Positions 24,679 to 57,106 of a stretch of DNA of 64,000 nt are shown one piece after another. This DNA is from Achromobacter deleyi (GTDB lineage: Bacteria > Pseudomonadota > Gammaproteobacteria > Burkholderiales > Burkholderiaceae_B). Below the pieces are notes generated by a model, which saw nothing but the letters and a program-made list of their open reading frames with translations, did no database searches and was not told the DNA's origin. Position 1 is the first letter of the stretch. Each line of letters starts with the position of its first letter. A program made the translations under genes and the position numbers. The DNA lies in contig NZ_CP065997.1 of assembly GCF_016127315.1 (NCBI RefSeq), positions 4,588,001-4,652,000 on the forward strand, in the 5' to 3' direction.

Positions 24679-24715
24679 TCCAACCTATGTTGCTTTGGTT
24701 TTTAAAGGTTACTTC

Positions 24716-39728: not shown

Positions 39729-40085
39729 TCAAGAAGTACTTTTGATCTCAGCGGCAGCTTCGATGAGACGCTTAATCTCTTTTTCTGTAAAACATGCGTC
39801 ACGTAGATAACGTAACAGATTGAGCACTTCACGTTGGTCTCGAAGGTAGTCCACAACGTCTGGGTCCGTAGAAGAGGACAACCGAAAGAGAACATCCGGG
39901 TCCGCCGCAAGAACTCGCGCCAGTTCTTTGATCACTTCAGGTCGAGGTGGGCTCTCCTTGCCTCGTTCAATACGGCTGAGGTAAGCCGGCGAGATGCCAA
40001 CCTTGGTGGCTGTCTCTCGTAAGCCTAGATCCTGGGCTGTACGCAGTGAGCGGACAGTGTCGCCGAAATTCTTCATCCCTCGCAT
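39729..40085 (-). CDS. mad1: MADS-associated XRE-family HTH regulator (MAD1-like)
   Basis: 118 residues from the ATG at 40085; a second ATG at 40076 is equally possible. The N-terminal Cro/CI HTH is VRSLRTAQDLGLRETATKVG, ISPAYLSRIERGKESPPRPE. A helical C-terminus follows (YLRDQREVLNLLRYLRDACF, TEKEIKRLIEAAAE). It is divergent from the large defence operon across a 24-bp palindrome, so it probably represses that operon and itself. Numbering as MAD1 follows my memory of the methylation-associated defence system and should be checked against the family models. Confidence 0.8.
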   Translation of the reverse strand: MRGMKNFGDTVRSLRTAQDLGLRETATKVGISPAYLSRIERGKESPPRPEVIKELARVLAADPDVLFRLSSSTDPDVVDYLRDQREVLNLLRYLRDACFTEKEIKRLIEAAAEIKSTS

Positions 40086-40096
40086 GCTATCTCAAT

Positions 40097-40120
40097 GTTT
40101 AGCGTTGCGCAACACTTAAC
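40097..40120. promoter_or_regulatory. 24-bp palindromic operator of the MADS locus
   Basis: GTTTAGCGTTGC (40097) and GCAACACTTAAC (40109) form a centre-symmetric repeat with 10 of 12 paired positions, 12 bp upstream of the XRE start. A further half-site-like GCGTTTAACG lies about 20 bp downstream toward mad2. It is the probable binding site of the XRE regulator. Confidence 0.6.
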
Positions 40121-40197
40121 GAAGCTGGTAAAGTCTGGCGTTTAACGGCAACTTCCAGTATCCCGTCCCCAGGTGAGGGGAGGGCAGGAGCAGTGTC

Positions 40198-40404
40198 ATG
40201 AGCAACGACGAAGTGATGCGGATAAGGGAAGTCGCGGCCCTATTGAAGGTCGGAGAAAAAACCGCCTATTCCATGGCCCAAGCCGGCGAGCTTCCCGCAT
40301 TTAAAGTTCGGGGCCAGTGGCGCTTCTCCCGAAAGGACATCGACATGTGGATCGAGCAACAGAAACACGCAACCCAAGAGTTCGGCGAGGACAGTCACCA
40401 ATGA
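40198..40404 (+). CDS. mad2: MADS-associated excisionase-type HTH protein (MAD2-like)
   Basis: 68 residues. VMRIREVAALLKVGEKTAYS, MAQAGELPAFKVRGQWRFSR, KDIDMWIEQQ is a single MerR/excisionase-like HTH_17 domain and nothing else. It lies 28 bp before the first methylase gene and opens the operon. In the reference MADS locus I recall two HTH genes before the methylases, so this is likely MAD2, a co-regulator rather than a true excisionase. Confidence 0.8.
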   Translation: MSNDEVMRIREVAALLKVGEKTAYSMAQAGELPAFKVRGQWRFSRKDIDMWIEQQKHATQEFGEDSHQ

Positions 40405-40432
40405 CATCTAACTCGGCGATCGGAGCTTTTAT

Positions 40433-42436
40433 ATGAGCAAAAAGAAGAACATGCACGCCGAGAGCACGATTCCGGCGGGATACGTGCTCGACTATGTTTC
40501 CGGAGAACAACTCAAAGAAACAAAAAAAGAGCTTGTCCGGCAGCGCGTGGTTCGCGCCTTGATTCACGAATATGGATTCTCGCCAGAAGATATGGAGCTT
40601 GATTTTTCCATTGGCGGCCGTAAGAAGGTTGACATAGCGATCTTCCACCACGGCAAAGAACACAGTATCGAGAATCTGGGCCGCGCTGTAGTTTGCCGTC
40701 AGGAGCCGAACGTCGGTAAGAATGCGGTGCGCATCCGTGACTTCGAACAAGCGTCAAGAGACCTCGATGATATCGAGGTCATCATGCGGGAGGTCGAAGC
40801 GGTTCAGTACGGTCTGTGGACCAATGGTCTGGAGTTCTTCTTCGTCGAGAAGGAACAGAAACGCTTTGAAACCAAGTGCAGCCCCATAGGCGACTGGCCG
40901 ATTGCAGAGGAGTCAGTCGGCACCAAGGACGTCATCTCCGATGCTCATACCCGAATCGCCGACAACGAGATGCTCAAGATCACCTTCCGCCGTTGCCACA
41001 ACTACATCCATGGCAACGAAGGGATGCCGAAGGATGCCGCCTTCTGGCAGTTCCTCTATCTGATCTTCTGCAAGATGCACGATGAGAATCTGCGGGGCAA
41101 GCAGCGCCAGGCGTGGAAACGCCGATTCTGGGCGGGCCCAAAGGAGCAGTTCGAGCCACAGGGCCGCAAAGCTATTCGCGCCCGTATCGAAGAGCTCTTC
41201 ACCGACGTCAAGAAGCAGTACAAGAGCATCTTTCGGGGCAATGAAGAGATCGCACTCTCCGATCGGGCGTTGGCTTTTATCGTTTCCGAATTGGCCAAGT
41301 ACGATTTCACCCGTACTGACGTCGATGCCAAGGGCGTGGCCTATCAAGAGTTGGTAGGCGTCAATCTCCGCGGCGATCGTGGTCAGTATTTCACTCCTCG
41401 AGGGGTCGTGAAGCTGGTAATTGAAATGCTCGAGCCCAAGGAGTGCGAAACATTATTGGACCCGGCATGCGGCACAGGCGGATTTCTAGTTGCCACCCTG
41501 GGCTACATGTTGAAGAAATTTCGCGATGAGAAGGACACGCAAGCTGGCAAAGAGAGCACAACAGACTTTCTAAGCGTCCATGAGAGACTAAAGGAGTACG
41601 CAGCTGCCAATGTGTTCGGAGCAGACTTTGACCCGTTCCTGATCCGCGCGGCCCAGATGAACATGGTGCTGGCAGGCGACGGTCGGGGGCATATCTACAA
41701 TATCAATTCCCTGGAATTTCCCCTGGGACACTTGGGTGATTTGCCTCCCGCAAAAAAAGATATCCCGCTGGGGTCGGTGGATATCATTGCCACCAATCCT
41801 CCTTTTGGCTCCGATATTCCAATAACTGATAAGCATATTTTGGAGCAATACGAGCTGGCGCACACCTGGGAACCGGACGGCGATGGCGGCTTCCGCAACA
41901 CAGGCACTTCCAAGAGCAGCGTTGCGCCGGAGATTCTCTTCATTGAGCGCTGCATCAAGTGGCTCAAGCCGGGCACCGGCCGCATGGGCGTCGTCCTGCC
42001 CGATGGCGTTCTCGGCAACCCGGCGGCGGAATACATCCGCTGGTGGATCATGCGTGAAACCCAGGTGCTTGCCTCTGTTGACTTGCCTGTGGAAGCCTTT
42101 ATCGCCGAGGCAAATGTCAACATCCTCACCAGCCTGCTGTTTCTGCGCCGAAAGAGTGAAGAAGAAAAACGCGTTGAGGCTTTGGGCGGCATTGATGGAT
42201 ATCCAGTCTTCATGGCTGTGGCCGACAAGGTTGGCTTCGACCGCCGTGGCAACAAGCTTTACAAACGCACGCCGGACGGCGAGGAGATCGTCGAACCCAA
42301 ACAGCATATTGAACGCATCCGCATCGGTGGGCGCATCGTGGAACGCACCCTGACCCGTAGAGAAAAGATCGAGGACAACGATCTGCCGGTCATCGCTGAG
42401 AAGTACCGCGAATTTCTTAAGGAGCAGAACGGATGA
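40433..42436 (+). CDS. mad3: N-6 DNA methyltransferase with HsdR-N-like N-terminus (MAD3-like)
   Basis: 667 residues. Residues about 30-120 resemble the N-terminal domain of type I R subunits (RVVRALIHEYGFSPEDMELD, GGRKKVDIAIF), but the usual E-x-K is replaced by VVCRQE. The methylase domain is HsdM-like: SAM motif I LLDPACGTGGFLV (Asp343-Pro-Ala-Cys-Gly-Thr-Gly) and catalytic motif IV TNPPFG (Asn455-Pro-Pro-Phe). RGQYFTPRGVVKLVIEMLEP is the HsdM lead-in. It should methylate adenine N6 together with the S-like subunit. It overlaps the paralogous mad4 by 4 bp. Confidence 0.88.
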   Translation: MSKKKNMHAESTIPAGYVLDYVSGEQLKETKKELVRQRVVRALIHEYGFSPEDMELDFSIGGRKKVDIAIFHHGKEHSIENLGRAVVCRQEPNVGKNAVRIRDFEQASRDLDDIEVIMREVEAVQYGLWTNGLEFFFVEKEQKRFETKCSPIGDWPIAEESVGTKDVISDAHTRIADNEMLKITFRRCHNYIHGNEGMPKDAAFWQFLYLIFCKMHDENLRGKQRQAWKRRFWAGPKEQFEPQGRKAIRARIEELFTDVKKQYKSIFRGNEEIALSDRALAFIVSELAKYDFTRTDVDAKGVAYQELVGVNLRGDRGQYFTPRGVVKLVIEMLEPKECETLLDPACGTGGFLVATLGYMLKKFRDEKDTQAGKESTTDFLSVHERLKEYAAANVFGADFDPFLIRAAQMNMVLAGDGRGHIYNINSLEFPLGHLGDLPPAKKDIPLGSVDIIATNPPFGSDIPITDKHILEQYELAHTWEPDGDGGFRNTGTSKSSVAPEILFIERCIKWLKPGTGRMGVVLPDGVLGNPAAEYIRWWIMRETQVLASVDLPVEAFIAEANVNILTSLLFLRRKSEEEKRVEALGGIDGYPVFMAVADKVGFDRRGNKLYKRTPDGEEIVEPKQHIERIRIGGRIVERTLTRREKIEDNDLPVIAEKYREFLKEQNG

Positions 42437-44457
42437 GCGATCAAGACGACATCATTGAAGCTCCGCAGGATGCTGCCGAAGAGAGCGGCCCGGATAACTT
42501 TTTCATCGACATCCTGACCGGCAACAAGGAAAGCGCCTCAGCCAAGAAGCTGCTGGTGCAGAAGGTTCTGCGCCAGCTCATCGAAAGCTACGGGTTTGAT
42601 CGGAACGACCTGGAGGTGAATTACAGCCCCCAGATCTCTGGGCAAGGGCGCAAGCGCATCGACATCGCGATTTTCCGTCCCGATGCCGAGCACAACAACG
42701 ACAACCTGCAGCGCATCATCCTCTGCAAGAATCAGAAAAAGCGCGACAAGCTCCGCTCCATTGCCGAGGCCGACGCCGACCTGCGAGAGCTCAAGGAACT
42801 GCTGGAACTGATCCCAGGCGCGACCCTTGGCATGTGGACCAACGGGCAGGAGGAATTCCTGTTCCAGATCGAGCGCGCCCGTTTTGAAGTCCGGCCCAAA
42901 CCGTTGGGTGTTTGGCCGGTTCCGGGCGAGCGCACCACCGATCTCGATCGCACCGGCGGTGTCATTCAGGTCAGCGCCGAAGTGGAAGATCTGGAAGACG
43001 CCCTGATGCGCTGTCGCCAATATCTGAACCGCAACCTTGGTCTCGATCACAAGGATTCCTTCAAGCAGTTGGCCGTGCTGATGCTGGCCAAGATCCACGA
43101 CGAGACCCTGTCCACCGGTGAGCGCAAGTTCTGGATCAGGGGTGACGAGCCTTTCACCGAGGCCGGCCAACAGGCCATTGCTCAGCGCATCACCGAATCC
43201 ATTGCCGCCGCCAAGGCCTGGCAACCGAACCTGCTGACCCGTGGCTGGGATCTGACGCTGGCACCCCACGAGACCGCCCGCGTGGTCATGGAGCTGGCCC
43301 GTTACTCCCTGAGCGAAACCCAGCCCCGTTACCGTACCGGGGCCTTCCGTGCGGTTGCCCGCAGCGTGATGGACGGCCGCGAGGGCCGCTACCCCACGCC
43401 GCTCAACGTGGCCGAAATGGCGGTGGAGATGCTTGACCCGCAACCCGGCGAACGCATCATGGACTGCTCCAGCGGCACCGGCACCTTCCTGGCCATGACC
43501 GCCGCGCACATCTTCAAGAAGAAACTGGCAGGCCTCGGCACCACGCCTGAAGAGGCCACCAACGAACAGATCCGCCAGGCGCAAAACGAGACCGCCGCCT
43601 GGGCGGCCAGCAATGCCCTGGGCTGTGACATCGATCCCTTCCTCGCCGTCGCCAGCCGCATGAACGTGTTGTTCACCACCGGCAATCCCGGTCGTGTGTT
43701 CCGCATCGATGCTCGCACCTTCCCGGACGGGGATCTTGACGGTGTTGAGGATGCTTGTCGCGCGATGAGCCGGAACCTAGGAGATATGGATATAGTCCTG
43801 CTTAACCCCTGGTTCTCCACCCAAGACACCGTGAGCGACACCTCCATCCTGGAGCGCTACGACCTGGGCAACAACTGGGAGCGCGACGAAGAAGGTGGAT
43901 TCCGCAACACTGGCAATCTAAACATCGGCGGTGTGCCGCCCGAGGTGCTGTTTATCGAACGCGCCCTGCAATGGGTGAAGCCCGGCACCGGCCGCGTTGG
44001 CATCCTGTTGCCCGATGGCTTGCTGGGCAATCCCAGCGACGAGTACGTGCGCTGGTGGATTCTCCGCCACTGCGAGGTCTTGGCCTCGGTTGACCTGCCG
44101 GTGGAGCCGTTCAAGGTCACGGTGAAGGAATATGGCCTGACGCCTGCCTTGCCCAGTCTCTTGGTTCTGCGCCGCCGCAGCCAGGAAGAGCTCATCAATA
44201 CCGAACACCCCGAATACAAGGTCTTCATGGCCGTGGTGGACCGGGCTGGTGTAGACGCCCGGGGCAATCTCCTGTTCCAGCGAGCCCCCGATGGAGAGGA
44301 ACTGGTTTTCGATGAGGAAGTGATCGAGCGGGTTCGAGAAGGCGGTGAAGTGGAAATCCGTCGGACCACACGCCGTAACCGCCGTGTTCATGACGAGCTG
44401 CCGCTGGTGGCAGAGAAATACAAGGAATTCCGCGCAAACGGCGAGGTGACGTTATGA
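42433..44457 (+). CDS. mad4: Divergent N-6 DNA methyltransferase paralogue (MAD4-like)
   Basis: 674 residues, same layout as mad3: an N-terminal HsdR-N-like region (YGFDRNDLEVNYSP, RKRIDIAIF, then IILCKN where E-x-K is expected) and an HsdM-like domain with RYPTPLNVAEMAVEMLDPQP. Motif I is IMDCSSGTGTFLA (Asp344) and motif IV is NPWF (Asn458-Pro-Trp-Phe) instead of NPPF/Y. The Asn is kept, so activity is not excluded, but the altered second proline suggests a partner or altered-specificity role. The shared C-terminus (PVIAEKYREF in mad3, PLVAEKYKEF here) shows the two are duplicates. Confidence 0.87.
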   Translation: MSDQDDIIEAPQDAAEESGPDNFFIDILTGNKESASAKKLLVQKVLRQLIESYGFDRNDLEVNYSPQISGQGRKRIDIAIFRPDAEHNNDNLQRIILCKNQKKRDKLRSIAEADADLRELKELLELIPGATLGMWTNGQEEFLFQIERARFEVRPKPLGVWPVPGERTTDLDRTGGVIQVSAEVEDLEDALMRCRQYLNRNLGLDHKDSFKQLAVLMLAKIHDETLSTGERKFWIRGDEPFTEAGQQAIAQRITESIAAAKAWQPNLLTRGWDLTLAPHETARVVMELARYSLSETQPRYRTGAFRAVARSVMDGREGRYPTPLNVAEMAVEMLDPQPGERIMDCSSGTGTFLAMTAAHIFKKKLAGLGTTPEEATNEQIRQAQNETAAWAASNALGCDIDPFLAVASRMNVLFTTGNPGRVFRIDARTFPDGDLDGVEDACRAMSRNLGDMDIVLLNPWFSTQDTVSDTSILERYDLGNNWERDEEGGFRNTGNLNIGGVPPEVLFIERALQWVKPGTGRVGILLPDGLLGNPSDEYVRWWILRHCEVLASVDLPVEPFKVTVKEYGLTPALPSLLVLRRRSQEELINTEHPEYKVFMAVVDRAGVDARGNLLFQRAPDGEELVFDEEVIERVREGGEVEIRRTTRRNRRVHDELPLVAEKYKEFRANGEVTL

Positions 44458-45869
44458 GCAGAAAGTTTCAATGTAAGGTTGTGCCAAGTATCTGGATTGA
44501 ACACAACGGTCGCCGCCTTGACTGCGGGCCTTATGTGTCAGGAGCGATAGAAGCAAAAGAGCTTTTAAGTCAGATGAACACAACTCCGCTGACGGATTTG
44601 ACCACTGGGCATAAGGGTGGGATCTATAATGGTTCACCCTTTGTCCGGAACTATGTGGAAGATCCAGATCATGGCGTTCCATTTTTGACCACATCCTCTT
44701 TGCTTCAGGCTGATCTGACCAATCTTTCACTGCTGAGCAAGCGAGATGCCCGCTCCAGACAGCTTAGTTTCCTCGAAATAAAGCCGGATATGACTCTCAT
44801 TACCTGCTCTGGAAGCATCGGCAGAATGGCCTATGCCAGGTCAGACATGAAGGGGATTTGGTCAAATCAGGACATCATGAAGGTTGTCCCAAATCCAGAC
44901 TTAGTTAAATCTGGTTATCTCTATGCCTACCTATGCAGCAAGTTCGGAGTCCCTCTTATTGCCTCCGGAACATATGGCGCAATTATTCCGCATATTGAGC
45001 CGCAGCATATCGCCGATCTCCCTGTTCCGCGCCTTGGCATCGTGGAAGATCAGGCTCATGAGCTAGTTCAACAAGCCGCAAATAAACGCGTTGAAGCCAG
45101 TAGAATCATTGCGAGAGCTATCGCGCAATTAGAAAGTGCCGCGGGCCTACAAGCGCTACCTTCCAGTAAATCAGATGGCATTCCACTCAGCTTGAGTGTC
45201 ACACCTTCTTCGAACCTGATGAAGCGGATGGACGGCGCCTTTCATAGTTTGTTTCATCGTGATGCTGTAAGGGCCCTCGAAACCGCATCGGTTCCGACGA
45301 CCACTGTAGCAAATAAGGCGGTATCCATAGTCGAGCCGAAACGATTCAAGAGAATCCAGATTGATGATCCGGAGTTTGGTATTCCAATGTTCGGAACATC
45401 GGCATTGATGTGGGCGGACCCACAGCCCAGCTATCTCATACCAAAAAACATGAGTGATATTGATGAGCTGTTGGTAGATCAGAAGACAGTGCTCGTTCCT
45501 CGATCTGGGCAGATATCTGGCATTATCGGCACTGCCGTCCTTCCTTATGGCGCCATAGTTGGATCTGCTGTCTCAGAAGATGCAATTAGAATTAATTGCT
45601 CGAATGAGATTATTGCCGGTTTTCTTTTCATTGTACTTAGATCCGAGTATGGGCGCCGCCAACTCAAAGCTCGCGCATATGGCTCCTCCATTCCGCATCT
45701 AGATGTTAACCAGATCGGGGAAACTCTGGTGCCTGACCTAGATGATGAGGTCATCGAGGAAATTGGTGCAATGGGCCTACAGAGCGCCAAACTTCGACAT
45801 GAGGCCATTGAACACGAAGGCAAAGCCCGCCGCCTCGTGGAGCGTGCAATCGAAGAGGGCGGCCGCTAA
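44454..45869 (+). CDS. mad5: Type I restriction S-like specificity subunit (MAD5-like)
   Basis: 471 residues. Two related halves are visible: DPDHGVPFLTTSSLLQADL near residue 70 and DPEFGIPMFGTSALMWADP near residue 305. Each is followed by a 'can be tested, no repeat' core (TLITCSGSIGRMAYARSDM; TVLVPRSGQISGIIGTAVL) and PHIEPQHIADLPVP or PHLDVNQIGETLVP ends. This is the two-TRD layout of HsdS, giving a bipartite recognition sequence to the methylases. Codon use is AT-richer than mad3 and mad4, as expected for a gene under specificity exchange. It overlaps mad4 by 4 bp and mad6 by one base. Confidence 0.85.
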   Translation: MSRKFQCKVVPSIWIEHNGRRLDCGPYVSGAIEAKELLSQMNTTPLTDLTTGHKGGIYNGSPFVRNYVEDPDHGVPFLTTSSLLQADLTNLSLLSKRDARSRQLSFLEIKPDMTLITCSGSIGRMAYARSDMKGIWSNQDIMKVVPNPDLVKSGYLYAYLCSKFGVPLIASGTYGAIIPHIEPQHIADLPVPRLGIVEDQAHELVQQAANKRVEASRIIARAIAQLESAAGLQALPSSKSDGIPLSLSVTPSSNLMKRMDGAFHSLFHRDAVRALETASVPTTTVANKAVSIVEPKRFKRIQIDDPEFGIPMFGTSALMWADPQPSYLIPKNMSDIDELLVDQKTVLVPRSGQISGIIGTAVLPYGAIVGSAVSEDAIRINCSNEIIAGFLFIVLRSEYGRRQLKARAYGSSIPHLDVNQIGETLVPDLDDEVIEEIGAMGLQSAKLRHEAIEHEGKARRLVERAIEEGGR

Positions 45870-48800
45870 TGGCAAAAGTCATACCCATCGGGCAACCCGC
45901 GAACGAATCTGAACGTCAGGCCATTGGTTTCCTCCGGGATCATCTTCCCGATGGCTGGCTGATCTTCCATAACTTCGAGATGCGCCAAGGGCAGGAGGTG
46001 TTCGAAATCGACATCGCCATCCTCGCGCCTCATGCGGTGTATCTGGTGGATGTCAAAGGGACGCGGGGCAACATCGATGTGTATGGCTCCAAGTGGTATC
46101 CGCAGGGGCGGCAACCGTTTCACTCGCCCCTCGCGAAGCTTCGTCACCACGCGAAGGTGATGGCCAGCTTCATCCGCGATAGCAATCCCGGTCAGATCGA
46201 GCTGCGCAAGGCTCATGTCCATGCCGCGGTGTTGCTCACTGCTGATGACGCCGCCGTGTTCGATCAGGCGGGCATCGACAGCCCGGACGTGACCGACTTC
46301 AAGCACTGCCTGAAATACTTCCGCGACGCGAGCCGTATCCCTGACAACCGGCTGGATAACATCACCCGCTTCCACTCGCAGATCGCCAAGGCAATCACCG
46401 GCACCGCCAAGCCTAAGAGCGCGGCGCTGGTGTTCCGCGACTGGCAGGTGGAAGAGAAGCTGGGCGGCACCGACCGCTACACCGAGTACCGCGCCAAACA
46501 CAACCTGTTGGGCAAGAGTGGCGGCATGGCCCGCCTGCGGGTCTACCAGGCAGACCCATACCAGGATGAGGCCGCCCGCAAGGCAGAGTTCAAGAAGATC
46601 AGCAACGCCTATCGCGCCGTGGCGCACATGCCGACCCACGCCAATGTGTTGGCGGTGAAGGATCTGTTCGTCTCAGACGATGAAGACAAGGTGGTGCTGG
46701 TCACTGAGGATCTGCCTGGCCAGGCCCTGCGCCTGCACATCAACAAGGTCTCGATGGCGCTGACCTTCGATCAGAAGCTCCAAGTGATGCGCGACGTGCT
46801 GTCGGCCCTGGACCATGCGCACCGGCATGAGGTGATCCACCGCAACCTGACCCCGGACGCCATTCTGCTGACCAAGGGCGGCCAGGCCCGGGTAACCGAT
46901 TTCGATTTCGCCAGGGTGGGCAAGAACCGCACCTCTACCATCGCCGATCAGGTGGTGGATGATCTGGATGCTGTCTACCAGGCTCCAGAGTGCTTCAAGG
47001 ACCCGACCCAGGCCAGCATTGCCTCTGACCTCTATGCCGCCGGGCTCATTTTTTACGAGCTGCTGACCGGCGAGCTGCCATTTGAAAGCGTCGACCAGAT
47101 GATGGAGGCCGATGGCAAGTTCCCCATCAAGCCGTCGGAGCACAAGCCGGACCTGCCCAAGGGGATCGACGAGTGGTTGCAGAAGTTCTGCGAGTTTGAC
47201 CCCGAGGAGCGGCAAACGAGCGCAGCCATCGCTCGCAAGGCCCTGGATGACCTGATTCTGCCCGAGGCCAAGAACGACTCCGGCCCGGCCGTGGTTGTGC
47301 CACAGCTCCCGGATGGCCTGATGAACTTGCCGCAGGATTTCATCCTGGCGGATCGCTTCCGCATTCAGAAGAAGCTGGGTAGCGGCGGCTTCGGCGTCGC
47401 CTACAAGGTGTTCGATTCCCTGGGCGATGTGGTGCGCGTCATCAAGCTGGTGACCAAGGACCGCCGCAGCGTGTACGAACGGCTGCGCCGCGAGTACAAG
47501 ACCCTGACCAATCTCCCCGAACATCCGCATGTGGTGAAGGTGATCTGGGCGGATCGCATGGCCGATGCCAAGCAGACGCCTTACATTGTCTTTGAGTATG
47601 TGGAAGGTTTGGATGTTTCCGATCTGATCGATGCCGAGGCGTTGTCGCTGGATGATGCCGTGCGCATCGTGCGCGAGGCAGCCGAGGGGCTGGCCCATCT
47701 CCACAAGCACGGCGTTTACCATCAGGACGTCAAGCCCTCCAATCTGCTATGGACGGACAAAGGCGTTCGCATCATCGATTTCAACGTCGCGGTCTCCGAG
47801 AACGATGAGGTTCAAGGTGGTGGCGGCACGCGCCGTTACCTGCCGCCGGATTACGACTACTCCTCCGAGCCGGATGCTTCGGATCGAATGGATCGTGACC
47901 TCTATGCCTTGGGCATCTCCTTCTATGAGTGCCTGACCGGCAAGTATCCATTCGACGATCCCACGCCACCGATCAAGACTCAGCTCAGGGACCCCAAGCA
48001 GTTCAAAGGCTGCGCCGACCTCAGCTCGTCGCTGGTCAATGTGCTGGCGAAGATGATCGCGCCGGAGCGCAAGGATCGGTTTGCGTCGGCGGAGGAGTTC
48101 TTGATTACCCTGGCCGAGGTCAAGCGCCTGCGCTCGGTGCTGACGACCGGCGAGATTGGTGCCGGACCCAAGGTGGTGTCCAAGCTGGGTTTCGAGCTGA
48201 CCAAGCCCAACACCAACCCCTTTGTAACCCACCTGCTGACGCTCTATAGCCAGAGCCAGGTGTCCAACGCAGGCACCCGTGGCCTCGACGAAGTTGGCAA
48301 GGCCACCTACGTGTCGACTTATCTGGACGAAAAGCTCAAGCCCACGCTGCTAAAGGGCGAGTTCCGTTTGGTCATCATCAGCGGTAACGCCGGCGACGGC
48401 AAGACGGCCTTCATCCAGCAGTTCGAGGCCTTTGTCGAGAGCAAGGGCGCACAGATACAGCGCGGCGCGAACGGGGCTGTGTTCCAGCTCAAGGGGCATA
48501 CCTACCAAAGCAACTACGACGGCAGCCAGGATGAAGGCGACGAGCGCAACGATGCCGTGCTTCAGAAGTTCTTCGCTCCCTTCGCGGGCAAAGATGCCTC
48601 CGGCTGGCCCGAGAATCAGACCCGCCTAATCGCCATCAACGAGGGACGGCTGGTCGACTTCTTCCTTGAGCATGAAGAAGAGTTCCCGTTGCTTGCCAAG
48701 CAGATCCAGCAGGGCTTGGCCGGAGCTGCTCCGGAAGACGGTATCGCAGTTATCAACCTCAACCTGCGCTCGGTGGTCGCCGAACCCGAGGAAGGTCAGC

Positions 48801-50011
48801 CTTCGATTCTGGAGCGACTGATCGCTCGCATGACGCAGCAGGAATACTGGCAGGCATGCGACAAGTGCGATCTCAAGGGCAAATGCTACGCCTATCACAA
48901 CGCCCGGACCTTCCAGGACCCGGTTGCCGGTCCCAAGGTGATTGAGCGCCTGAAGATGCTCTACACCATTACGCACCTGCGCGGCCGACTGCACATCACC
49001 ATGCGCGACCTTCGTTCGGCGCTGGCCTTCATGCTGGTAGGCACCCAGGATTGCGACGGCATTCACCACCTCTATCAGAACGGCGGAGAAGAAATCCAGA
49101 ATCGCATCCTTGACGGTTTCTATTTCAACTCGTGGCTTGGCGGGGCGGAAGGATCCAATGACCGGCTGATTGCCTTGCTGCGCGAAATTGACGTTGCCGA
49201 AGTCAGCAATCCCGACCTGGACCGCGAGCTTGGCTTCCTCAATCCCAAGACCAAGACCATGAGCCGCTTCTCGTTCGCGGAGCGGGCTGGGTATGACGAT
49301 GAACTTGTGGCGACGCTGTTCCGCAATCTGCCTCGCGATTACTCGTCGAAGAACCGAGCGCGACTGATCGCCAAGCATCGCAATTATCTATCGCATATGC
49401 GCCGTCGCCACTTCTTTGAGCGACGCGACACCGGCTGGAAGGAGATGCTGCCATATGGAAGCATCGATCCCTTCCTAGATGCCATTGAGCAGCCGGGAGC
49501 GAAAAGCGCAGATGAGGTTACAGCTATTCTTCGAGCCATCAACCGGGGCGAAGGTCTGAGCGATCCGGCGCGTTTGGGCAACCAGTTGGCGCTGCGTGTT
49601 CGCCAGGTGGATAAGGGCACCATCCGCAGTTACCGTCTCTTTGACGGCAACCATTTCACGCTCCGCACCGAGCAGGAAACAGCGGCTCATCCTTTCCTTG
49701 AATGCCTGTCTCAGGCGCTAGTGCTGCTTTACGACTCCGGTGACGGGCATAAGGCCAGCCTGCGCATCAATCTTGACATCTATGAAATGCTGATGCGGCT
49801 CAACAACGGCTACCGTCCCAGCATCGAGGAACATGAAGGTTTCCTGTTAAGTCTGGCGGTATTCAAAAACCTGTTATCTGCTGCACTCTATCAAGAAGTT
49901 CTGCTGACGGAAAATGGGCTCCGGTTCTACCAGATAAACAGAAAAGAGGATGGCGTATTGGCATTGGGTGTTTCTGAAAAGGGGGCTGAATATCATGTCA
50001 ATCAAGGGTAG
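45869..50011 (+). CDS. mad6: NERD - double protein kinase - P-loop ATPase (MAD6-like)
   Basis: 1380 residues. A NERD nuclease-like domain at about 10-130 has EIDIAILAPHAVYLVDVKG (Asp48, Asp61, Lys63). A first kinase-like domain (about 195-465) is degenerate: the catalytic loop is HRNLTPDA (Asn326 for Asp, Thr328 for Lys). A second kinase domain (about 490-755) is near canonical: KKLGSGGFGVAYK, VIKL with Lys526, HQDVKPSN with Asp620 and Lys622, and DFN at 637-639 for DFG. The C-terminal half carries a P-loop, SGNAGDGKTAF (Lys845), and a CxxCx5C cluster at 997-1006. It probably senses infection and signals by phosphorylation; that is inference. Confidence 0.87.
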   Translation: MAKVIPIGQPANESERQAIGFLRDHLPDGWLIFHNFEMRQGQEVFEIDIAILAPHAVYLVDVKGTRGNIDVYGSKWYPQGRQPFHSPLAKLRHHAKVMASFIRDSNPGQIELRKAHVHAAVLLTADDAAVFDQAGIDSPDVTDFKHCLKYFRDASRIPDNRLDNITRFHSQIAKAITGTAKPKSAALVFRDWQVEEKLGGTDRYTEYRAKHNLLGKSGGMARLRVYQADPYQDEAARKAEFKKISNAYRAVAHMPTHANVLAVKDLFVSDDEDKVVLVTEDLPGQALRLHINKVSMALTFDQKLQVMRDVLSALDHAHRHEVIHRNLTPDAILLTKGGQARVTDFDFARVGKNRTSTIADQVVDDLDAVYQAPECFKDPTQASIASDLYAAGLIFYELLTGELPFESVDQMMEADGKFPIKPSEHKPDLPKGIDEWLQKFCEFDPEERQTSAAIARKALDDLILPEAKNDSGPAVVVPQLPDGLMNLPQDFILADRFRIQKKLGSGGFGVAYKVFDSLGDVVRVIKLVTKDRRSVYERLRREYKTLTNLPEHPHVVKVIWADRMADAKQTPYIVFEYVEGLDVSDLIDAEALSLDDAVRIVREAAEGLAHLHKHGVYHQDVKPSNLLWTDKGVRIIDFNVAVSENDEVQGGGGTRRYLPPDYDYSSEPDASDRMDRDLYALGISFYECLTGKYPFDDPTPPIKTQLRDPKQFKGCADLSSSLVNVLAKMIAPERKDRFASAEEFLITLAEVKRLRSVLTTGEIGAGPKVVSKLGFELTKPNTNPFVTHLLTLYSQSQVSNAGTRGLDEVGKATYVSTYLDEKLKPTLLKGEFRLVIISGNAGDGKTAFIQQFEAFVESKGAQIQRGANGAVFQLKGHTYQSNYDGSQDEGDERNDAVLQKFFAPFAGKDASGWPENQTRLIAINEGRLVDFFLEHEEEFPLLAKQIQQGLAGAAPEDGIAVINLNLRSVVAEPEEGQPSILERLIARMTQQEYWQACDKCDLKGKCYAYHNARTFQDPVAGPKVIERLKMLYTITHLRGRLHITMRDLRSALAFMLVGTQDCDGIHHLYQNGGEEIQNRILDGFYFNSWLGGAEGSNDRLIALLREIDVAEVSNPDLDRELGFLNPKTKTMSRFSFAERAGYDDELVATLFRNLPRDYSSKNRARLIAKHRNYLSHMRRRHFFERRDTGWKEMLPYGSIDPFLDAIEQPGAKSADEVTAILRAINRGEGLSDPARLGNQLALRVRQVDKGTIRSYRLFDGNHFTLRTEQETAAHPFLECLSQALVLLYDSGDGHKASLRINLDIYEMLMRLNNGYRPSIEEHEGFLLSLAVFKNLLSAALYQEVLLTENGLRFYQINRKEDGVLALGVSEKGAEYHVNQG

Positions 50012-51638
50012 AGACAAGGAATTCAGAACACCTAAGGTCAGTTATTTGCATTGGCAGCACACGGAAATGGATCGTGTGCTGACCATGCTATTTCCTCGCC
50101 TCAAATTCAATGGCTATGGCAGTCGCAAGCCGCCACGCGCAAATATTTTGCAGCCAGAAGAATTTGCAGATGAAATGATGCTGTCCGAAGAGGTTAAGCA
50201 GTATTTTGAGGGCTTTGACGAACATCCCTCCATTGTCCACAAGTGGGTAGAGACCGAACTTCTTGATGTGGTAAATCGGGGCAAGTCGAATCAAGCTGTC
50301 GCCTCTCCACGACCGCTTCATGGAGAGACCTACAAATTTCGAAATGCGAAGCACTGCCGTGACTATGGGGCAGCCGAGCAGATTTATTGGATGCTCTACT
50401 ATGCCCGCAAAGGCAAGGGCCAGGCCGCCCGAGACACGCTAAAGCGCTTCTTTTTTCCTGGGATTGACCATGTAACCGGTAGGCATGAATCCGGCACGGT
50501 CGTCGATGTAGAAACCCAAGCGCTACTTCGCTTCGATTCTCAAGTTACTCAGGACACACAGGACTCCAAGGAGCCCGAGCGCTTTCCACCACTTCTGATC
50601 GATCATGCCGACACCATGGCCGACGACCTTCTGCGGCTATTGGCCTATGAGCCCTATATTCCTCGCTCGGTGCTGGTGGATTACCTAAAAACCCTGATGG
50701 CATTCCATCTGGCGCTCTACCACCTCAAGCTGTTGCAGATACTGCCCAAGCTGGTGAAGCAGCGCTCGGACAATGCGCTGGAGAGTTCACCTGATCCCGT
50801 GGCGCTGGTCGTGGATATGGGGAACGTCAACAATCCGCATATGGTCGAGCTGGCTCGCAGGTCCACTGACCGGCTCTATCGCCAGATTCCTGCCTTTGTG
50901 CAGGCCAATTTCGTCGTCAAGAAGCTCGATGAGATGGCGGAATACCTGAGCAAGAAGACGGGCAAGCTGGCTACTCCAGGGGGCGGCGTGTTCACCGTCG
51001 GCGATCTGGTTTCTCTACTGAAGCCCGAGCACGACGCCGAGCTCCAAGCCTACTTCAAGTTCCGCCTGGCCAGCTTGATCGAGGAATCGACCTCTGGAAA
51101 CGAGGACATCGATCCGGAAATCCGGGAAGTCACCGCCATGGGCCTTGGTGAGTTCGAATCCTTCATCGAAATCCTGATGGCATATCGCGGGAAGTATCAC
51201 CGCCAGTACATCACTGAGTGCCTGGACTCACTGCTGCTGAAGAACAAGGAGAACGGCCTGTTGGCCCAATCCCGAACCAAGGGAAGTCCTCGGCGGTTTG
51301 TGCTGGGAAGCAAGCTTCTTGAAGTGCTCCTTCAGGTGGCTGTGCTCACTCAGGATGGCGGGCGTTTCGTGACCCGCGAGGTTCGCATTGAGGAGTTGCT
51401 GGCCTTTTTGAGAAGCCGCTACGGCCTTCACATCGACCGGCTGCCGGAAGGAGCACAGGCCAACAGCAGCATCCTCGACAGACGCGCCCTGCGCCTCAAT
51501 CTAGAAGCCTTCAAGCGTCGCCTGCGTGAAATCGGGTTCTACGAGGACCTGTCGGATGCCTACGTGACCCAGAAGGTATCGCCCCGCTATGCGATTGAGA
51601 GAAATGACGGAACAGATAAAACCGGGAGGCGTGCATGA
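49995..51638 (+). CDS. mad7: MADS protein of unknown fold (MAD7-like)
   Basis: 547 residues from the ATG at 49995, which lies 17 bp inside the end of mad6. No membrane segment, nucleotide-binding or nuclease motif can be recognised. Notable conserved-looking stretches are YAAEQIYWMLYYARKG-like, YEPYIPRSVLVDYLKTLMAF, LYHLKLLQILPKLVKQRS and VTREVRIEELLAFLRSRYGL. The C-terminal part resembles a winged helix by pattern only. Tight coupling between mad6 and mad8 suggests it bridges the kinase and the translocase. The name follows my memory of the eight-gene MADS set. Confidence 0.75.
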   Translation: MSIKGRDKEFRTPKVSYLHWQHTEMDRVLTMLFPRLKFNGYGSRKPPRANILQPEEFADEMMLSEEVKQYFEGFDEHPSIVHKWVETELLDVVNRGKSNQAVASPRPLHGETYKFRNAKHCRDYGAAEQIYWMLYYARKGKGQAARDTLKRFFFPGIDHVTGRHESGTVVDVETQALLRFDSQVTQDTQDSKEPERFPPLLIDHADTMADDLLRLLAYEPYIPRSVLVDYLKTLMAFHLALYHLKLLQILPKLVKQRSDNALESSPDPVALVVDMGNVNNPHMVELARRSTDRLYRQIPAFVQANFVVKKLDEMAEYLSKKTGKLATPGGGVFTVGDLVSLLKPEHDAELQAYFKFRLASLIEESTSGNEDIDPEIREVTAMGLGEFESFIEILMAYRGKYHRQYITECLDSLLLKNKENGLLAQSRTKGSPRRFVLGSKLLEVLLQVAVLTQDGGRFVTREVRIEELLAFLRSRYGLHIDRLPEGAQANSSILDRRALRLNLEAFKRRLREIGFYEDLSDAYVTQKVSPRYAIERNDGTDKTGRRA

Positions 51639-54600
51639 GTAATGCGTTCACCAGGCTTTCCCAGGATAAGTTGAACGCGGCGGTCGCTTGTCTACTGTGC
51701 CCCCGTATCGAAGCGATCCTGGGTGACCGTGGCCCAGGCCACTGCATGCGGGTCACCGATCTCGATGACGAGGTAATGGAGTCGGTCTGCAAGAAACTAC
51801 GTCGGACCCGGCCCGACGGAAACATCTTTATCCTCGGCAGCCATGATCAGGAGGGCCAGCCCTTCCGAGTCACTTCCACCAAACTGGTGGAGTTGCGCAA
51901 CCCGGACGCGAACGGCGACCTGCGTCAGCCTTTGCTGGTCTTCATACCGACTTCGCTTCGCACCAGCGCCGAGGACTCGTTCGGTGTGGCGACCTTCGAG
52001 GAGCTGACCTTCGCCGGTATCTACGAGGACCTTATCGACTCGCTGCTTGATCGGCTCCCGACAACACTGGTTCGCCATGCTCGCGATCTTTTGGGCATCC
52101 TCACCGAGGAGGAGTGGTTGTTTGCTGACCATGTTTCGCGCGTGCGGTACCTGCTCACTGCGCTCGAAAACGGGATTGATGGAGAAACCCTCGGGGCCAG
52201 CCTGTATGAATTGACGTTGATTCCAGACTTTAAGCTCTTTGCCGATCCCGGCCTGGTCAATGGCAAGATTCGCCGTAACCTCGGCAGCGTCCGCAGTCTG
52301 ATGGCCTCGCACAAGTCGGTTCGTGGTCGTATCGCCCATCTGGGACTCAGCGACAAGGCATTGGAGTCGCGACTATTCACCTATTTTGAAAAATACGATG
52401 TCCAGGAGCCCGAATCCTGGACGCCGCCCATCGCGACCGACAAGAGCTGGTGGAGCATTTCTTTCGACAAATGGACGTTCCAGGAAGAGCTTTCGCTGGA
52501 CAAGGTCCTGCTGACAGTGCTGGAGACCGACTTGCCGGTCGTTCAGGAGGATGAGACTGACGACCAACTCTCCGGCCTCATCGGGCAACAGGTTCTGGTG
52601 CCGAACGACCGCCGCAAAATGAACGTGGCGTTCGAGGTTAGCCCTCACCCTGGCAAGGTCAGCGGGCTTGATCATTTTACGGTTCAGATCATTTCGCAGA
52701 ATGACGGCCCGGTAGGGAAATCTAAAAAAGTCAAGGCGTGGACGCCGAACCGCCTGCAATGCACGACCAACTTGGCCAAGCTCAATAAGATCGAATTCGA
52801 AGAAGGATGGCATTTCATCCGTGTAATGCCTTGGACGGCCGATGGCGATCCGATTCCGCTGGAAGCGGATTCCGCCTCGGAGGGTGCAAGACGTTCCTAC
52901 GAGAGCGAACCTTTCTACGTCCTGCCCGGTGGCAACATCGAGGAAGAACCACCCCAACGCGCCATACCCATTGAGCAGAGCCTGGAGCATGCGCGTTTCC
53001 GGCTGCAACTGACTGCCCTGGGCGATGAACGCGATCCCGATGATATCGCCATCAGTGGTGTCGCCTGGGCCGAGGGCGGTCGTTCCAAGAAGACCTCTCG
53101 CCAGGAAACGCTACACGCAAAATTCGGTCGTGAGGGCGCGGTTCAGATCCCGCTTTCGCGTATGCTCAAAACCATCGAGCAGCGCATCTTGGCAGAGCCT
53201 AAGCACCCGTCAGGCTGGCGAATGCAGATCAATCTGGATACCGCCGAGCCGCCTTCCGAGGTTGGACTCACGCTGCCATCTTCCGCCGGGATGGCTTCCT
53301 TCCTAGCTGCCCGCGAAGAGTTTTTTGCAGCAGTACGCAAAGGCACTGCCGAGCTGATCATGCAGGGGCTTTCGTTCCGCGACTCGGAAAGAGAATGCCT
53401 CGCGTATGCTGAAAGCTACCTTGACTTGGTCAGGAGCCTCATCCGTCAGGCCGAGACGACTTCTGGTGCCGAGCGTCAGCAACACTTGCAAGCGCTCAGA
53501 AATGTGCTGGCCGTCGACTCCATTCATGTCATCTTGACCGACTTCGGTGGAAGGCACCGGGAGGCTGTTTTGGTCTCCCCAACCCATCCGCTCCGTGCCT
53601 TGTGGCTGAGCAGTTGGGTCGCCCTGGGTAAGGATTGGATTGAGAAGATCAAGTCAGGCGGGAAGGATCACATTCCTCACGTCCGTTCCGCGCTGTTGGA
53701 TGGCCTTGTGCCCTCTGCCTACCCGGTCGGTATTCCCGTCGAGGATGGCCGCATCTTCACTCCGGTGGACAACCTGAATGCTTTCTGGGCGCTCTACGCC
53801 CCGACGACCGAGGAAAATTCCCGTGGTCTGATGGCGGAAATCTGTTCGGCTCTTGGCTTGGCCGAGCCCTCTGCGGCGGGAACAGATATTTCCGGACAGG
53901 TCATTGCGGACAAGATCGAGCGCTATCTCTCTCAGCATCCCTATGTTCGAGAGTTATCACTGAACATCTTCAACCCTGGGGCCGGATCGGTGATTGCGGA
54001 GGCTCTGCTATCGCTCCAGCAGAAGCGTGAGCATGCCGATTTGCGCTATGACGTGCGGCTCTTTAACACCGATCCTGACTCACCTGTTTTGGGCGAGGCC
54101 CTTGAGTCGATGGTCCGTCCCGGAGCCACGGTAAACGAGGCCGCCGACGCATTTGCGACCTCAACGGGTAGCCATCTGTTCTCCAAGCTGAACTTGGCCA
54201 AGCACCCACTGAACGAATTTCATGCAAATTCCAAGGAGTTCCCGGCGCACATCAGCGTTCTTCTGGATGTTTTTCCCGCCGAGGAGCTTTCCATTGCAGA
54301 GAAACCGATGGGAGTGACCCCGCTGCATGGGCTGATACAGGACTTCGACACTGAGTTCGTTGATGACGATTCGGGGACCTTCTGGAACAAGCGGCCGATT
54401 GTCGGGCGCTCCCTCGGCGCGGACAACCATACGGCGTGCTTCGATTTGCTGTCGTCCCTGAGCCGACACGTCTGTTTTGCTACCTCAGCGGTTGCTGCTT
54501 CTGGTGCCAGCTTCAAAGCTGTGCCTGTGGTGACCCTTGGCCTCGATGTGGCCCAACGAGAACTGATCTACGAGGTTCACCAGGTCAGCGATTGGGTGTT

Positions 54601-57106
54601 CACCATCGACCGAAATATGGGGATTGAGTTCTTCGACCATGGCGGCCGGAAGAACAGACCGGACTATCTGATTGACTATGTGCCGGGAGCCAGCTCCCAG
54701 GCGACACATAACCTGATCATCTCGTCGCGCTCGAACGATGAACTGGAGGCGATGCTGAAGCCGGTGCTGCTTGAGCATGGCTTGTCCGCCGACGGCGAGC
54801 AGTCGGTTCAGATCCTGGCAAATCTGCGGTCGCTGTCCGGTCAGCTTGCCCTGAAGCTGATTTCTGCTCGCACACAACAGGCGGAAGCACTTGGTCTGGC
54901 TTTGGCTCGGCTCTACCTCGAATATCAGGGCGCATTGAGCAATCAGGTCATTGTGCCGTTGGATGCGCACACAGACCTTTACCGCTCAAGCGGTGAGTCA
55001 GATGGTGTCAATGATGCAATCAGCCTACAACGCACCGACTTGGGATTGTTCGACTTGGATTTGAACACCAGAACGATCACTTGCAACCTGGTCGAGGTGA
55101 AATGCTATTCGCAAGTTGGCGACTTTGCGGCCTTCAACCAACTGAAGGAACGGATTTCCGCCCAGATCAATCAGAGCGAGCGCATCCTCCAGCGCCACTT
55201 TGACCCGGCCTTGAAGAAGCCGGATCGGCCGGATAGATTGCTCAAGAGCCGGGAGTTGGCTCAGATCCTTCGTTTCTATCTAGAGCGCTCACTGCGTTAC
55301 GGGATCTTTGATGCGACTGCTGCGCAGGAAGCACGAGGGTTACTTGAGTCCATCGAGCAGGGCTACTCGCTTCAGTTCAGACGCTGCGCCCTGATCTTCG
55401 ACTTCGACAAGACCGGAACCGAGGCCCCTGACAACGAGGTGGGCATTGAATTCCACCGCATCGGCAAGGATCTCATTCACGCCTTACTGCAGAACTGCCG
55501 CAATCCTGTTTCAGTCGAGATTGAGGAAGAACCGACCGCACGCCTTCTTAGCGAGCAGTTCATACCAAACGTGCCGAAACTTGAGACCGCGGCCTTTATC
55601 GCACCCAAGAGAGCACGGTCAACGTCCTGGACGATGGATGAGCTCTGGGACGATGATCCGGAGGTACCAATCACCGCGCCAGCACTCGCGGCCGCAGAGG
55701 ATGCACCTGCGCCTGCTCATCAAGAGGCAGAAGAACAGGTGAGCGCTGTCGAGCCAACCTCACCGCCTTCTATCGCTTCGGAAGTAGACAGCGAGGACGA
55801 ACAACCTGCCGTGGCTGCGGTACCGGAAGCACATGCTGAACCAGAGCCTGAAGGACACCCGGCGTCTGAGCCTGTGCCTCAAGCAGAGGCCAGCTATGAC
55901 ATCATGCTCGGCGTCAATGGCGGCTCGCCTCAGTACGGACTACTCGGAGAGGTCTCCGGTAGAAAAGTCGCGCTAGATCTCAACCACACCCACACGATCA
56001 GTCTCTTTGGGGTTCAAGGCGGCGGCAAGAGCTACACCCTTGGAACGGTAATCGAGATGGCCTCTATGCCGTTCCAGCATATCAACGTGCTGCCAAGCCC
56101 GCTTGCCACGGTTATCTTCCATTACAGCCCGACGCAGGATTATGCGCCGGAGTTCACCTCGATGATCAATGCCAACTCGGTGGAAGAGGAGATTCACGTC
56201 CTTCGCGAACGTTACAAGGCCAACCCAGAAGCGCTTAAGGATGTGCTGATTCTTACCCCTGCGAACAAGGTGGATGATCGCCGGGCCGAGTACCCGGATA
56301 TCGAGGTTAAGCCGATTGCTTTCTCTGCCTCCGAGCTTAAGGCCGCCCACTGGAAATTCCTGATGGGCGCGATTGGCAGTCAGAGCATGTACATGCGCCA
56401 AATCAATCTAATCATGAGGGGACTGCGCGACAACCTGACCTTGGACGCCCTACGAGCAGGCATTGATAACTCTGGCCTGTCCGATCACCTGAAAGAGCTG
56501 GCCCAGACGCGCCTGCTGTTCGCTAGTGAATACATTGAGGATAACCAACGGCTTCAAGACCTCATCCGTCCGGGCCGCTTGATCATCGTGGATCTGCGTG
56601 ACGAGTACATCGAAAAGGACGAGGCGCTCGGTCTGTTCGTTGTGATGTTGCAGATTTTCTCGGAAGCGACTTACCAAGGAGGCGCTTTTAACAAGCTCGT
56701 GGTCTTCGATGAAGCTCACAAATACATCGAGAACGATGACCTAGTTTCCGGCTTAGTAGAAGTCGTCCGTGAGATGCGACATAAAGGGACCAGCATCATG
56801 GTTGCCTCTCAGGACCCACCATCGGTACCTGTCTCCTTGATCGAGCTGTCATCACAGATCATCTTGCACAAATTCAACTCGCCTGCTTGGTTGAAGCATA
56901 TTCAGAAAGCAAATGCCGCCCTCGGTGAGTTGACTTCTGACAAGATGAGTCATCTTGTCAGCGGTGAAGCTTATGTGTGGTCTAGTAAGGCTTCTGACGA
57001 CTCCTTCACCAGGGGGGCGGTGAAAATTAAGTGCCGTCCTCGCATCACACAACATGGTGGCGGCACTAAGACCGCCGTGGGGCGGCCGCCGAAGCAAGCG
57101 CGTTAG
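51635..57106 (+). CDS. mad8: Giant ATPase with PD-(D/E)XK-like motif and HerA/FtsK-type C-terminus (MAD8-like)
   Basis: 1823 residues. The N-terminal 1100 residues are not recognised. At 1140-1156, DLDLNTRTITCNLVEVKCY gives Asp1140 followed by Glu1154-Val-Lys1156, a nuclease-type D...ExK pattern. A Pro/Glu/Ala-rich linker covers about 1350-1430. The C-terminal ATPase has Walker A SLFGVQGGGKSYTLG (Lys1465), Walker B LVVFDEAHKY (Asp1692-Glu1693) and IMVASQDPPSVPVSL, as in HerA/DndH-like translocases. It is probably the effector that pumps and cuts non-self DNA; this is inferred. It closes the operon and overlaps mad7 by 4 bp. Confidence 0.85.
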   Translation: MSNAFTRLSQDKLNAAVACLLCPRIEAILGDRGPGHCMRVTDLDDEVMESVCKKLRRTRPDGNIFILGSHDQEGQPFRVTSTKLVELRNPDANGDLRQPLLVFIPTSLRTSAEDSFGVATFEELTFAGIYEDLIDSLLDRLPTTLVRHARDLLGILTEEEWLFADHVSRVRYLLTALENGIDGETLGASLYELTLIPDFKLFADPGLVNGKIRRNLGSVRSLMASHKSVRGRIAHLGLSDKALESRLFTYFEKYDVQEPESWTPPIATDKSWWSISFDKWTFQEELSLDKVLLTVLETDLPVVQEDETDDQLSGLIGQQVLVPNDRRKMNVAFEVSPHPGKVSGLDHFTVQIISQNDGPVGKSKKVKAWTPNRLQCTTNLAKLNKIEFEEGWHFIRVMPWTADGDPIPLEADSASEGARRSYESEPFYVLPGGNIEEEPPQRAIPIEQSLEHARFRLQLTALGDERDPDDIAISGVAWAEGGRSKKTSRQETLHAKFGREGAVQIPLSRMLKTIEQRILAEPKHPSGWRMQINLDTAEPPSEVGLTLPSSAGMASFLAAREEFFAAVRKGTAELIMQGLSFRDSERECLAYAESYLDLVRSLIRQAETTSGAERQQHLQALRNVLAVDSIHVILTDFGGRHREAVLVSPTHPLRALWLSSWVALGKDWIEKIKSGGKDHIPHVRSALLDGLVPSAYPVGIPVEDGRIFTPVDNLNAFWALYAPTTEENSRGLMAEICSALGLAEPSAAGTDISGQVIADKIERYLSQHPYVRELSLNIFNPGAGSVIAEALLSLQQKREHADLRYDVRLFNTDPDSPVLGEALESMVRPGATVNEAADAFATSTGSHLFSKLNLAKHPLNEFHANSKEFPAHISVLLDVFPAEELSIAEKPMGVTPLHGLIQDFDTEFVDDDSGTFWNKRPIVGRSLGADNHTACFDLLSSLSRHVCFATSAVAASGASFKAVPVVTLGLDVAQRELIYEVHQVSDWVFTIDRNMGIEFFDHGGRKNRPDYLIDYVPGASSQATHNLIISSRSNDELEAMLKPVLLEHGLSADGEQSVQILANLRSLSGQLALKLISARTQQAEALGLALARLYLEYQGALSNQVIVPLDAHTDLYRSSGESDGVNDAISLQRTDLGLFDLDLNTRTITCNLVEVKCYSQVGDFAAFNQLKERISAQINQSERILQRHFDPALKKPDRPDRLLKSRELAQILRFYLERSLRYGIFDATAAQEARGLLESIEQGYSLQFRRCALIFDFDKTGTEAPDNEVGIEFHRIGKDLIHALLQNCRNPVSVEIEEEPTARLLSEQFIPNVPKLETAAFIAPKRARSTSWTMDELWDDDPEVPITAPALAAAEDAPAPAHQEAEEQVSAVEPTSPPSIASEVDSEDEQPAVAAVPEAHAEPEPEGHPASEPVPQAEASYDIMLGVNGGSPQYGLLGEVSGRKVALDLNHTHTISLFGVQGGGKSYTLGTVIEMASMPFQHINVLPSPLATVIFHYSPTQDYAPEFTSMINANSVEEEIHVLRERYKANPEALKDVLILTPANKVDDRRAEYPDIEVKPIAFSASELKAAHWKFLMGAIGSQSMYMRQINLIMRGLRDNLTLDALRAGIDNSGLSDHLKELAQTRLLFASEYIEDNQRLQDLIRPGRLIIVDLRDEYIEKDEALGLFVVMLQIFSEATYQGGAFNKLVVFDEAHKYIENDDLVSGLVEVVREMRHKGTSIMVASQDPPSVPVSLIELSSQIILHKFNSPAWLKHIQKANAALGELTSDKMSHLVSGEAYVWSSKASDDSFTRGAVKIKCRPRITQHGGGTKTAVGRPPKQAR

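Follow-up and report, generated by a model that had tools for sequence, protein, structure and literature searches.

The window analysed here, a stretch of 64,000 nucleotides from Achromobacter deleyi (assembly GCF_016127315.1, contig NZ_CP065997.1, positions 4,588,001 to 4,652,000 of the forward strand), contains a real and intact seven-gene operon that is a two-methylase variant of MADS, the methylation-associated defense system reportedly described by Maestri et al. in 2024. Comparison of its proteins with known families makes it reasonably probable that the operon couples a type I-like methylation module to a translocase-nuclease of the Dnd/SspFGH type, and its membership of the MADS families suggests a role in phage defence. 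A preliminary description of the region had presented it as a complete eight-gene MADS-type operon on a self-transmissible conjugative element. The open reading frames (ORFs), coordinates and overlaps given there are borne out (Table 1): the six large genes overlap each other by 1 to 62 bp, no ORF is interrupted by stops and the lengths agree with those of relatives. GC content falls from 0.63-0.69 over 34-40 kb of the window to 0.52-0.61 over the operon.

All seven genes scored above the cut-offs of NCBIfam equivalog families (MAD1, MAD2, a second MAD2-type methylase referred to here as M2, MAD5, MAD6, MAD7 and MAD8), so that the MADS identity proposed earlier stands on curated profiles, including those for mad6 to mad8. 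MAD1, MAD2, MAD5, MAD6, MAD7 and MAD8 follow the order in which MADS is coded in NCBIfam and PADLOC; the difference is that a second MAD2-type methylase with the motif NPWF replaces MAD3 and MAD4, and that the window has an XRE gene and an operator-like site that the MADS profile sets do not contain. Both resources describe MAD3 as an AAA ATPase and MAD4 as a small protein. No operon protein matches the NCBIfam family of either, and the PADLOC MAD4 profile has no match genome-wide. The PADLOC mad3 profile was rejected as a genome-wide marker; it behaves as a general ATPase profile, matching 61 of 61 genomes and 14 of 14 controls, and is uninformative here.

To place this arrangement, 49 loci (numbered L below) were compared: 44 from named genomes, two E. 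coli and two plasmid records, and the window. Among these, a Piscinibacter plasmid (L057) carries mad3 and mad4 alongside the rest of the MAD genes, as do L034, L037 and L041; NCBIfam MAD3 was above its cut-off in the three proteins tested (L034, L041 and L057), as was MAD4 in its three (L037, L041 and L057). The operon could also be read as nothing but the eight-gene MADS of the first publication, one of the eight being the second methylase. The seven equivalog matches would suit this reading, and so would RefSeq, where E. coli copies with this layout bear the names mads1, mads2, mads2 and mads5-8; but MAD3 and MAD4 are distinct families that are found elsewhere and unmatched here, the numbering of NCBIfam and PADLOC refutes such a gene content, and we consider this explanation very improbable. 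The operon is not the canonical eight because MAD3 and MAD4 are unmatched and their slot is filled by the second methylase; the earlier count of eight had been reached by including the XRE gene and the second MAD2-type methylase.

Two further identities were considered. MAD6 has the NERD, pseudokinase and kinase order of PglW from Type 2 bacteriophage exclusion (BREX)/Pgl systems, but differs in its F-like C-terminus, and no operon protein matches PglZ. BREX was rejected, as PglW scored 233 bits on MAD6 against a cut-off of 990 and the match was confined to NERD plus kinases. Nor did any operon protein match an HsdR helicase/translocase; this agrees with the preliminary description, which had excluded a standard type I system. 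The only HsdR-related matches were the HSDR_N-like domains of the two methylases, and these were rejected as the nuclease of the operon: the Glu of E-x-K is replaced in every aligned protein, by Cys in 36 and Val in two of 38 copies of M1 (the mad2 product), and by Cys in 31 of 31 copies of M2.

The restriction function would instead lie in MAD6, MAD7 and MAD8, which resemble in order and size the F, G and H proteins of SspFGH and DndFGH, a kinship that had been missed in the earlier description. The resemblance of the MAD6 C-terminus to SspF/DndF is strong: it matches SspF at 104 bits (E-value 2e-30), hhalign gave 98.8% against F, and the MAD6C profile picked out the F gene in four of four reference loci and matched nothing else among the 75 ORFs of these loci. 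MAD7 more weakly resembles SspG (33.9 bits, E-value 4e-9; hhalign 67.9% against G, E-value 5e-5), over its C-terminal part only; of 369 genomes, 5 have a match to the SspG family, and in one of these the matching protein is the window MAD7. The family alignment of MAD7 begins at residue 16, which is position 49995. MAD8 resembles DndH and SspH, again more weakly (25 and 21 bits), and hhalign gave 88.5% for its middle part against H. Mismatched pairs reached at most 0.5% in all eight tried, the pairs MAD6C-H and MAD8-F being left out of the eight.

The predicted layout of MAD8 also follows that of DndH. Residues 743-1005 form a methyltransferase fold in the predicted model and contain no [NDS]PP[FYW], and downstream of this fold, ahead of the HerA part, there is an invariant E-x-K belonging to a D...ExK motif (the MAD8 structure alignment comprised 39 rows). 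Sequence searches of solved structures returned mostly HerA-type ATPases over the MAD8 C-terminus, and nothing useful for MAD6C or MAD7. A methyltransferase fold, nuclease and HerA have been published as the layout of DndH, and NERD plus two kinase domains fused to F have been published for a subset of DndF proteins (PMC10853773); DndFGH reportedly nicks and translocates DNA (PMC11662687). MADS differs from SspFGH and DndFGH in coupling this set to HsdM/HsdS-like genes, in the fused NERD and kinase domains of its F-like part, and in having no Dnd or Ssp phosphorothioate modification family among the operon protein matches, to which that search was confined.

Several observations weigh against this reading. 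By sequence the MAD7-G link is weak, as the MAD7 profile found G in just two of four reference loci; so is the MAD8-H link, as MAD8 profiles found H in none of the four, and the HerA part alone gave an hhalign value of 6.1% against H. The MAD8 model is moderate (predicted local distance difference test, pLDDT, 62.8; predicted template modelling score, pTM, 0.51), and structure comparison with VIA-align returned no nuclease fold among the 50 rows listed, which cover the methyltransferase part. On the methylation side, MADS loci without M2 exist, so M2 is dispensable for some MADS and an obligatory M1-M2-S complex is unproven.

M1 and M2 are 37% identical and differ consistently in motif IV. NPPF was present in M1 of all 38 aligned loci (rows of at least 70% length), whatever occupied the slot next to it, and NPWF in M2 of all 31, with no NPP[FYW] there; the M2 alignment covers 31 of 32 M2 loci, the M2 of L038, which is broken into pieces, being omitted and the truncated M2 of L023 kept. 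A search with the most divergent M2 (L046) gave at least 474 matches, and the 120 listed, a few of which may overlap the 31 loci, all have NPWF and none has [NDS]PP[FYW]. The partner motif is likewise distinct, RGQYFTP in 37 of 38 M1 and [ED]GRYPTP in 31 of 31 M2. In M2 the S-adenosylmethionine (SAM) motif D-x-x-x-G-T-G is retained, as are N and P in motif IV together with an aromatic residue. The predicted M2 model (pLDDT 66.9; structure alignment of 29 rows) resembles the HsdM-like folds of BsaXI, EcoKI M and PacII M1M2S. A literature search found no paper with both whole words NPWF and methyltransferase, other spellings falling outside that search.

The non-canonical type I system PacII M1M2S similarly pairs a single S gene with two distinct M subunits, of which M1 has NPPF. 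In PacII-type systems M1 (NPPF) makes N6-methyladenine (m6A) and M2 (NPPY) makes N4-methylcytosine (m4C) on opposite strands with one S (PMC9613975). MADS M2 differs in having NPWF and GRYPTP versus NPPY and AAEF, and MADS has no HsdR; judged from these motifs, MADS M2 fits neither the NPPF nor the NPPY class. Following the PacII precedent, M2 could be an active methylase of a third-pocket type that places a different base mark, for example m4C, on the second strand. Its strict conservation and the retained SAM motif, Asn, Pro and aromatic residue agree with this, but Trp replaces the second proline, a residue that belongs to the base cage of PacII M2, neither NPPY nor NPPF is present and the partner motif differs, leaving activity of this kind possible at somewhat under an even chance. 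M2 could also be a pseudo-methylase that binds SAM and DNA without methylating and serves structural asymmetry or sensing, with one strand marked. The loss of NPP[FYW] in all 31 loci and all 120 homologues listed would fit such a role, as would the unrelated proteins that fill the place of M2 in other loci; a dead enzyme would nevertheless not need the SAM motif and catalytic Asn that M2 retains, and this role, too, is plausible but falls short of probable.

The place of M2 between mad2 and mad5 was visible as a slot in 43 of the 49 loci, including the window; L022, L036, L039, L040, L048 and L052 do not show it. Among the 43 it holds M2 in 32, mad3 and mad4 in six, a Fic gene in two (L026, by Pfam; L054, judged by eye from the translation) and neither in three (L027, L047 and L058). 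L049 and L050 were scored as mad3/mad4 though their genes have diverged from the query. The slot content has switched repeatedly on a tree of MAD6, where the slot states need nine changes: L027 (empty slot) and L037 (mad3/mad4) fall within supported clades that are otherwise of M2 type, and L041 (mad3/mad4) pairs with L033 (M2) with a support of 99. This is a quick tree in which 16 of 40 inner branches are weak, long rows were flagged for L058, L057, L049, L050, L041, L038 and L034, and rows of odd composition for L058, L046, L045, L049 and L047.

Remnants of M2 are present in two loci, as expected if M2 was replaced: an N-terminal fragment (65 residues, 57%) beside the Fic gene of L026, and, following mad4 in L037, a short match to the M2 C-terminus (49 residues, 53%, 41 bits). 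L029 and L053 each have an extra gene, metallopeptidase-like in both, with a weak Pfam match in L029, and L045 has an additional DUF1828 gene. Alternatively, the gap between mad2 and mad5 could accept interchangeable sensors or backup effectors as a plug-in site, in which case M2 would be one of the inserts and not a writer. The four slot states and their nine changes, the M2-like fragments beside a Fic gene and after mad4, and the extra genes would all accord with this; M2 is, however, homologous to M1 and has the HsdM fold, for which a DNA-marking role is the simpler guess, and with only 43 loci and a quick tree we think it unlikely. A bolder reading, less probable than not, is MADS as a modular chassis with a fixed type I-like writer (M1 and S), a fixed Dnd/SspFGH-type attack complex and an exchangeable slot (a third-pocket-type M2, the mad3/mad4 ATPase pair or Fic); in the type found in the window, M2 would make the self-mark asymmetric, the second strand bearing either a mark other than m6A or none at all, and this asymmetry would be read by the F-G-H complex.

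Two loci showed other changes in gene content. An IS3-like insertion, recognised by eye, truncates M2 in a Rhodocyclaceae metagenome-assembled genome (MAG; L023:3320-4446), where MAD6 to MAD8 are still open. The MADS-like operon of a Bacteroides plasmid (L058), which has neither M2 nor mad3/mad4, carries a PP2C phosphatase gene and a Fic gene directly after mad8 (L058:22097-23910); the phosphatase is a possible counterpart to the MAD6 kinase.

The specificity subunit MAD5 also varies. The window MAD5 is 99% identical to that of L020 (a Thiogranum MAG) and 36-42% identical to those of L011-L013, though the MAD6, MAD7 and MAD8 proteins of these three are 97-99% identical to those of the window. 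In the identity profile the differences lie mostly in two inner stretches, where the recognition domains are expected, and the ends are better preserved; this pattern indicates that S recognition domains are exchanged between near-identical operons.

The sequence TTTAG[CT]GTnnnGCAACAC lies between the divergent XRE gene and mad1 and has no second copy in the window. Of the 48 other MADS loci, 19 have a single copy each, which precedes mad1 or, where mad1 was undetected (L016, L025, L034 and L054), mad2. The site-bearing loci include M2, mad3/mad4, Fic and empty-slot types, and in L025 the site is a perfect 9-bp inverted repeat. The remaining 29 loci have no exact match; many are too short upstream, and in some, such as L030, L047, L057 and L058, the site is absent despite visible upstream DNA. 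An XRE homologue was found upstream in 10 of the 48 (L016, L021, L025, L026, L027, L034, L041, L054, L055 and L056), most of the others being too short upstream to show one, and in none of L047, L057 and L058, which have more than 1 kb upstream of mad2. In all nine cases with about 300 bp or more beyond the site (the window, L016, L025, L026, L027, L034, L054, L055 and L056) the homologue abuts it. This arrangement suggests that the XRE protein regulates its own gene through the operator-like site.

Conjugation genes lie upstream of the operon, on a backbone that we, like the earlier description, take to be Tn4371-like. TraG, TrbB, TrbE, TrbL and TrbF are above a cut-off, and the RlxS relaxase (661, cut-off 850) and TrbI (201, cut-off 386) are below theirs; the genome carries two further related trbI copies. 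Homology to seven other copies of the element stops just before the XRE gene (Table 1). Six of these seven copies, a nearly identical pair among them, run on for about 330 bp to a common T-rich end. This end is absent after 39475, and neither the remainder of the window nor the next 40 kb contains it; the defence cluster may have replaced the right end of the conjugative element. Long direct repeats flanking the element amounted to just one 17-bp match, and no useful tRNA genes were found in the window or in 52 kb of added flanks. None of 12 relatives has a strong TrbE match on its MADS contig, the strong matches, in one genome, being on other contigs. Marginal matches occur on the MADS contig of two of the 12 (E-values 5e-4 and 9e-4), one of them in an 825-aa frame at a distance of about 26 kb; these two contigs possibly carry some other conjugation ATPase.

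Horizontal spread of the operon is plain. MAD7 has a match in 10 of 5426 E. coli genomes, and in the two E. coli records examined, RefSeq annotates the same seven-gene layout within islands at tRNA-Leu or tRNA-Phe, next to an integrase; among phage records MAD7 had no match. The preliminary description holds for the conjugation genes upstream and for spread as such, but self-transmission, and spread by means of this element, are unproven because the right end is missing and no strong TrbE match was found on the MADS contig of the 12 relatives. Elsewhere on the upstream side of the window, an AbiEii-type toxin homologue, possibly a defence or toxin-antitoxin gene, lies near the integrase (11566-12627), and a low-GC cargo of TetR, short-chain dehydrogenase, glutathione S-transferase-like and LysR genes lies between relaxase and TraG (23017-26695).

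Directly downstream of the operon and convergent with it is a complete set of zac genes (PADLOC: ZacC 1149, ZacB 572 and ZacA 452 bits), which we take to be the Azaca system and which the preliminary description had also missed; MADS and Azaca form a two-system defence cluster. In L025 a ZacA homologue (43%) starts about 3.9 kb after MAD8.

Table 1. Features of the MADS operon and its borders (window positions)
Feature	Position	Strand	Evidence
End of homology to other Tn4371-like elements of the genus	39466..39475	.	
XRE-family regulator, divergent, outside named MAD families	39729..40085	-	HTH_31/HTH_3
Operator-like site TTTAG[CT]GTnnnGCAACAC between XRE and mad1	40098..40115	+	pattern match
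mad1, excisionase-like helix-turn-helix protein, 68 aa	40198..40404	+	NF047737 MAD1 86.7 bits (cut-off 80); PADLOC mad1 29 bits
mad2 (M1), HsdM-like N6-adenine methylase, NPPF, N-terminal HSDR_N-like domain	40433..42436	+	NF047738 1017 bits (cut-off 720)
M2, second MAD2-type methylase	42433..44457	+	NF047738 804 bits (cut-off 720)
M2 motif IV NPWF	43804-43815	+	
mad5, HsdS-like specificity subunit, exchangeable target-recognition domains	44454..45869	+	NF047740 485 bits (cut-off 400)
mad6: NERD nuclease domain, pseudokinase (HRN), Ser/Thr kinase (HxD, DFN)	45869..50011	+	NF047741 866 bits (cut-off 460); NERD, Pkinase matches
mad6 C-terminal SspF/DndF-like P-loop domain	48200-50011	+	SspF 104 bits, E 2e-30
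mad7, DndG/SspG-like	49995..51638 (ORF from 49950)	+	NF047733 663 bits (cut-off 410)
mad8, DndH/SspH-like	51635..57106	+	MAD8 equivalog 235 bits (cut-off 175)
mad8 methyltransferase fold	53861-54649	+	predicted model
mad8 PD-(D/E)xK-like motif E1154-x-K1156	55094-55102	+	conserved motif
mad8 C-terminal HerA ATPase	from about 55922	+	
Azaca-type set	57473..63660	-	ZacC 57473-60673, ZacB 60636-62576, ZacA 62482-63660

Taken as a mechanism, M1 and S, with M2, would form a type I-like complex that marks bipartite sites of the cell's own DNA, M2 most likely sitting opposite M1 on S as an asymmetric partner that gives the other strand a different mark or leaves a one-strand mark. MAD6, MAD7 and MAD8 would make up a restriction complex of the F-G-H type related to SspFGH/DndFGH, in which the MAD6 C-terminus would serve as the nucleotide-binding core in the place of F, MAD7 would bind DNA as the G-like subunit, and MAD8, the H-like protein, would combine a HerA translocase and a PD-(D/E)xK-like nuclease with a methyltransferase-fold domain that is probably inactive. 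DNA lacking the mark would be bound by this complex, which would translocate on it and nick or cut it; the NERD domain, and the pseudokinase and kinase that are likewise fused to F, may act in gating or as backup effectors, and the XRE protein would repress the operon through the conserved palindrome.

A 2026 review still gives the restriction step of MADS as unknown (PMC12904381). Similarity to F, G and H leads to testable predictions of the residues that would cut, the residues that would translocate and the subunit that would read DNA. An unusual methylome is to be expected from the NPWF methylase and the exchangeable slot, which also allow module swapping to be studied as a natural experiment.

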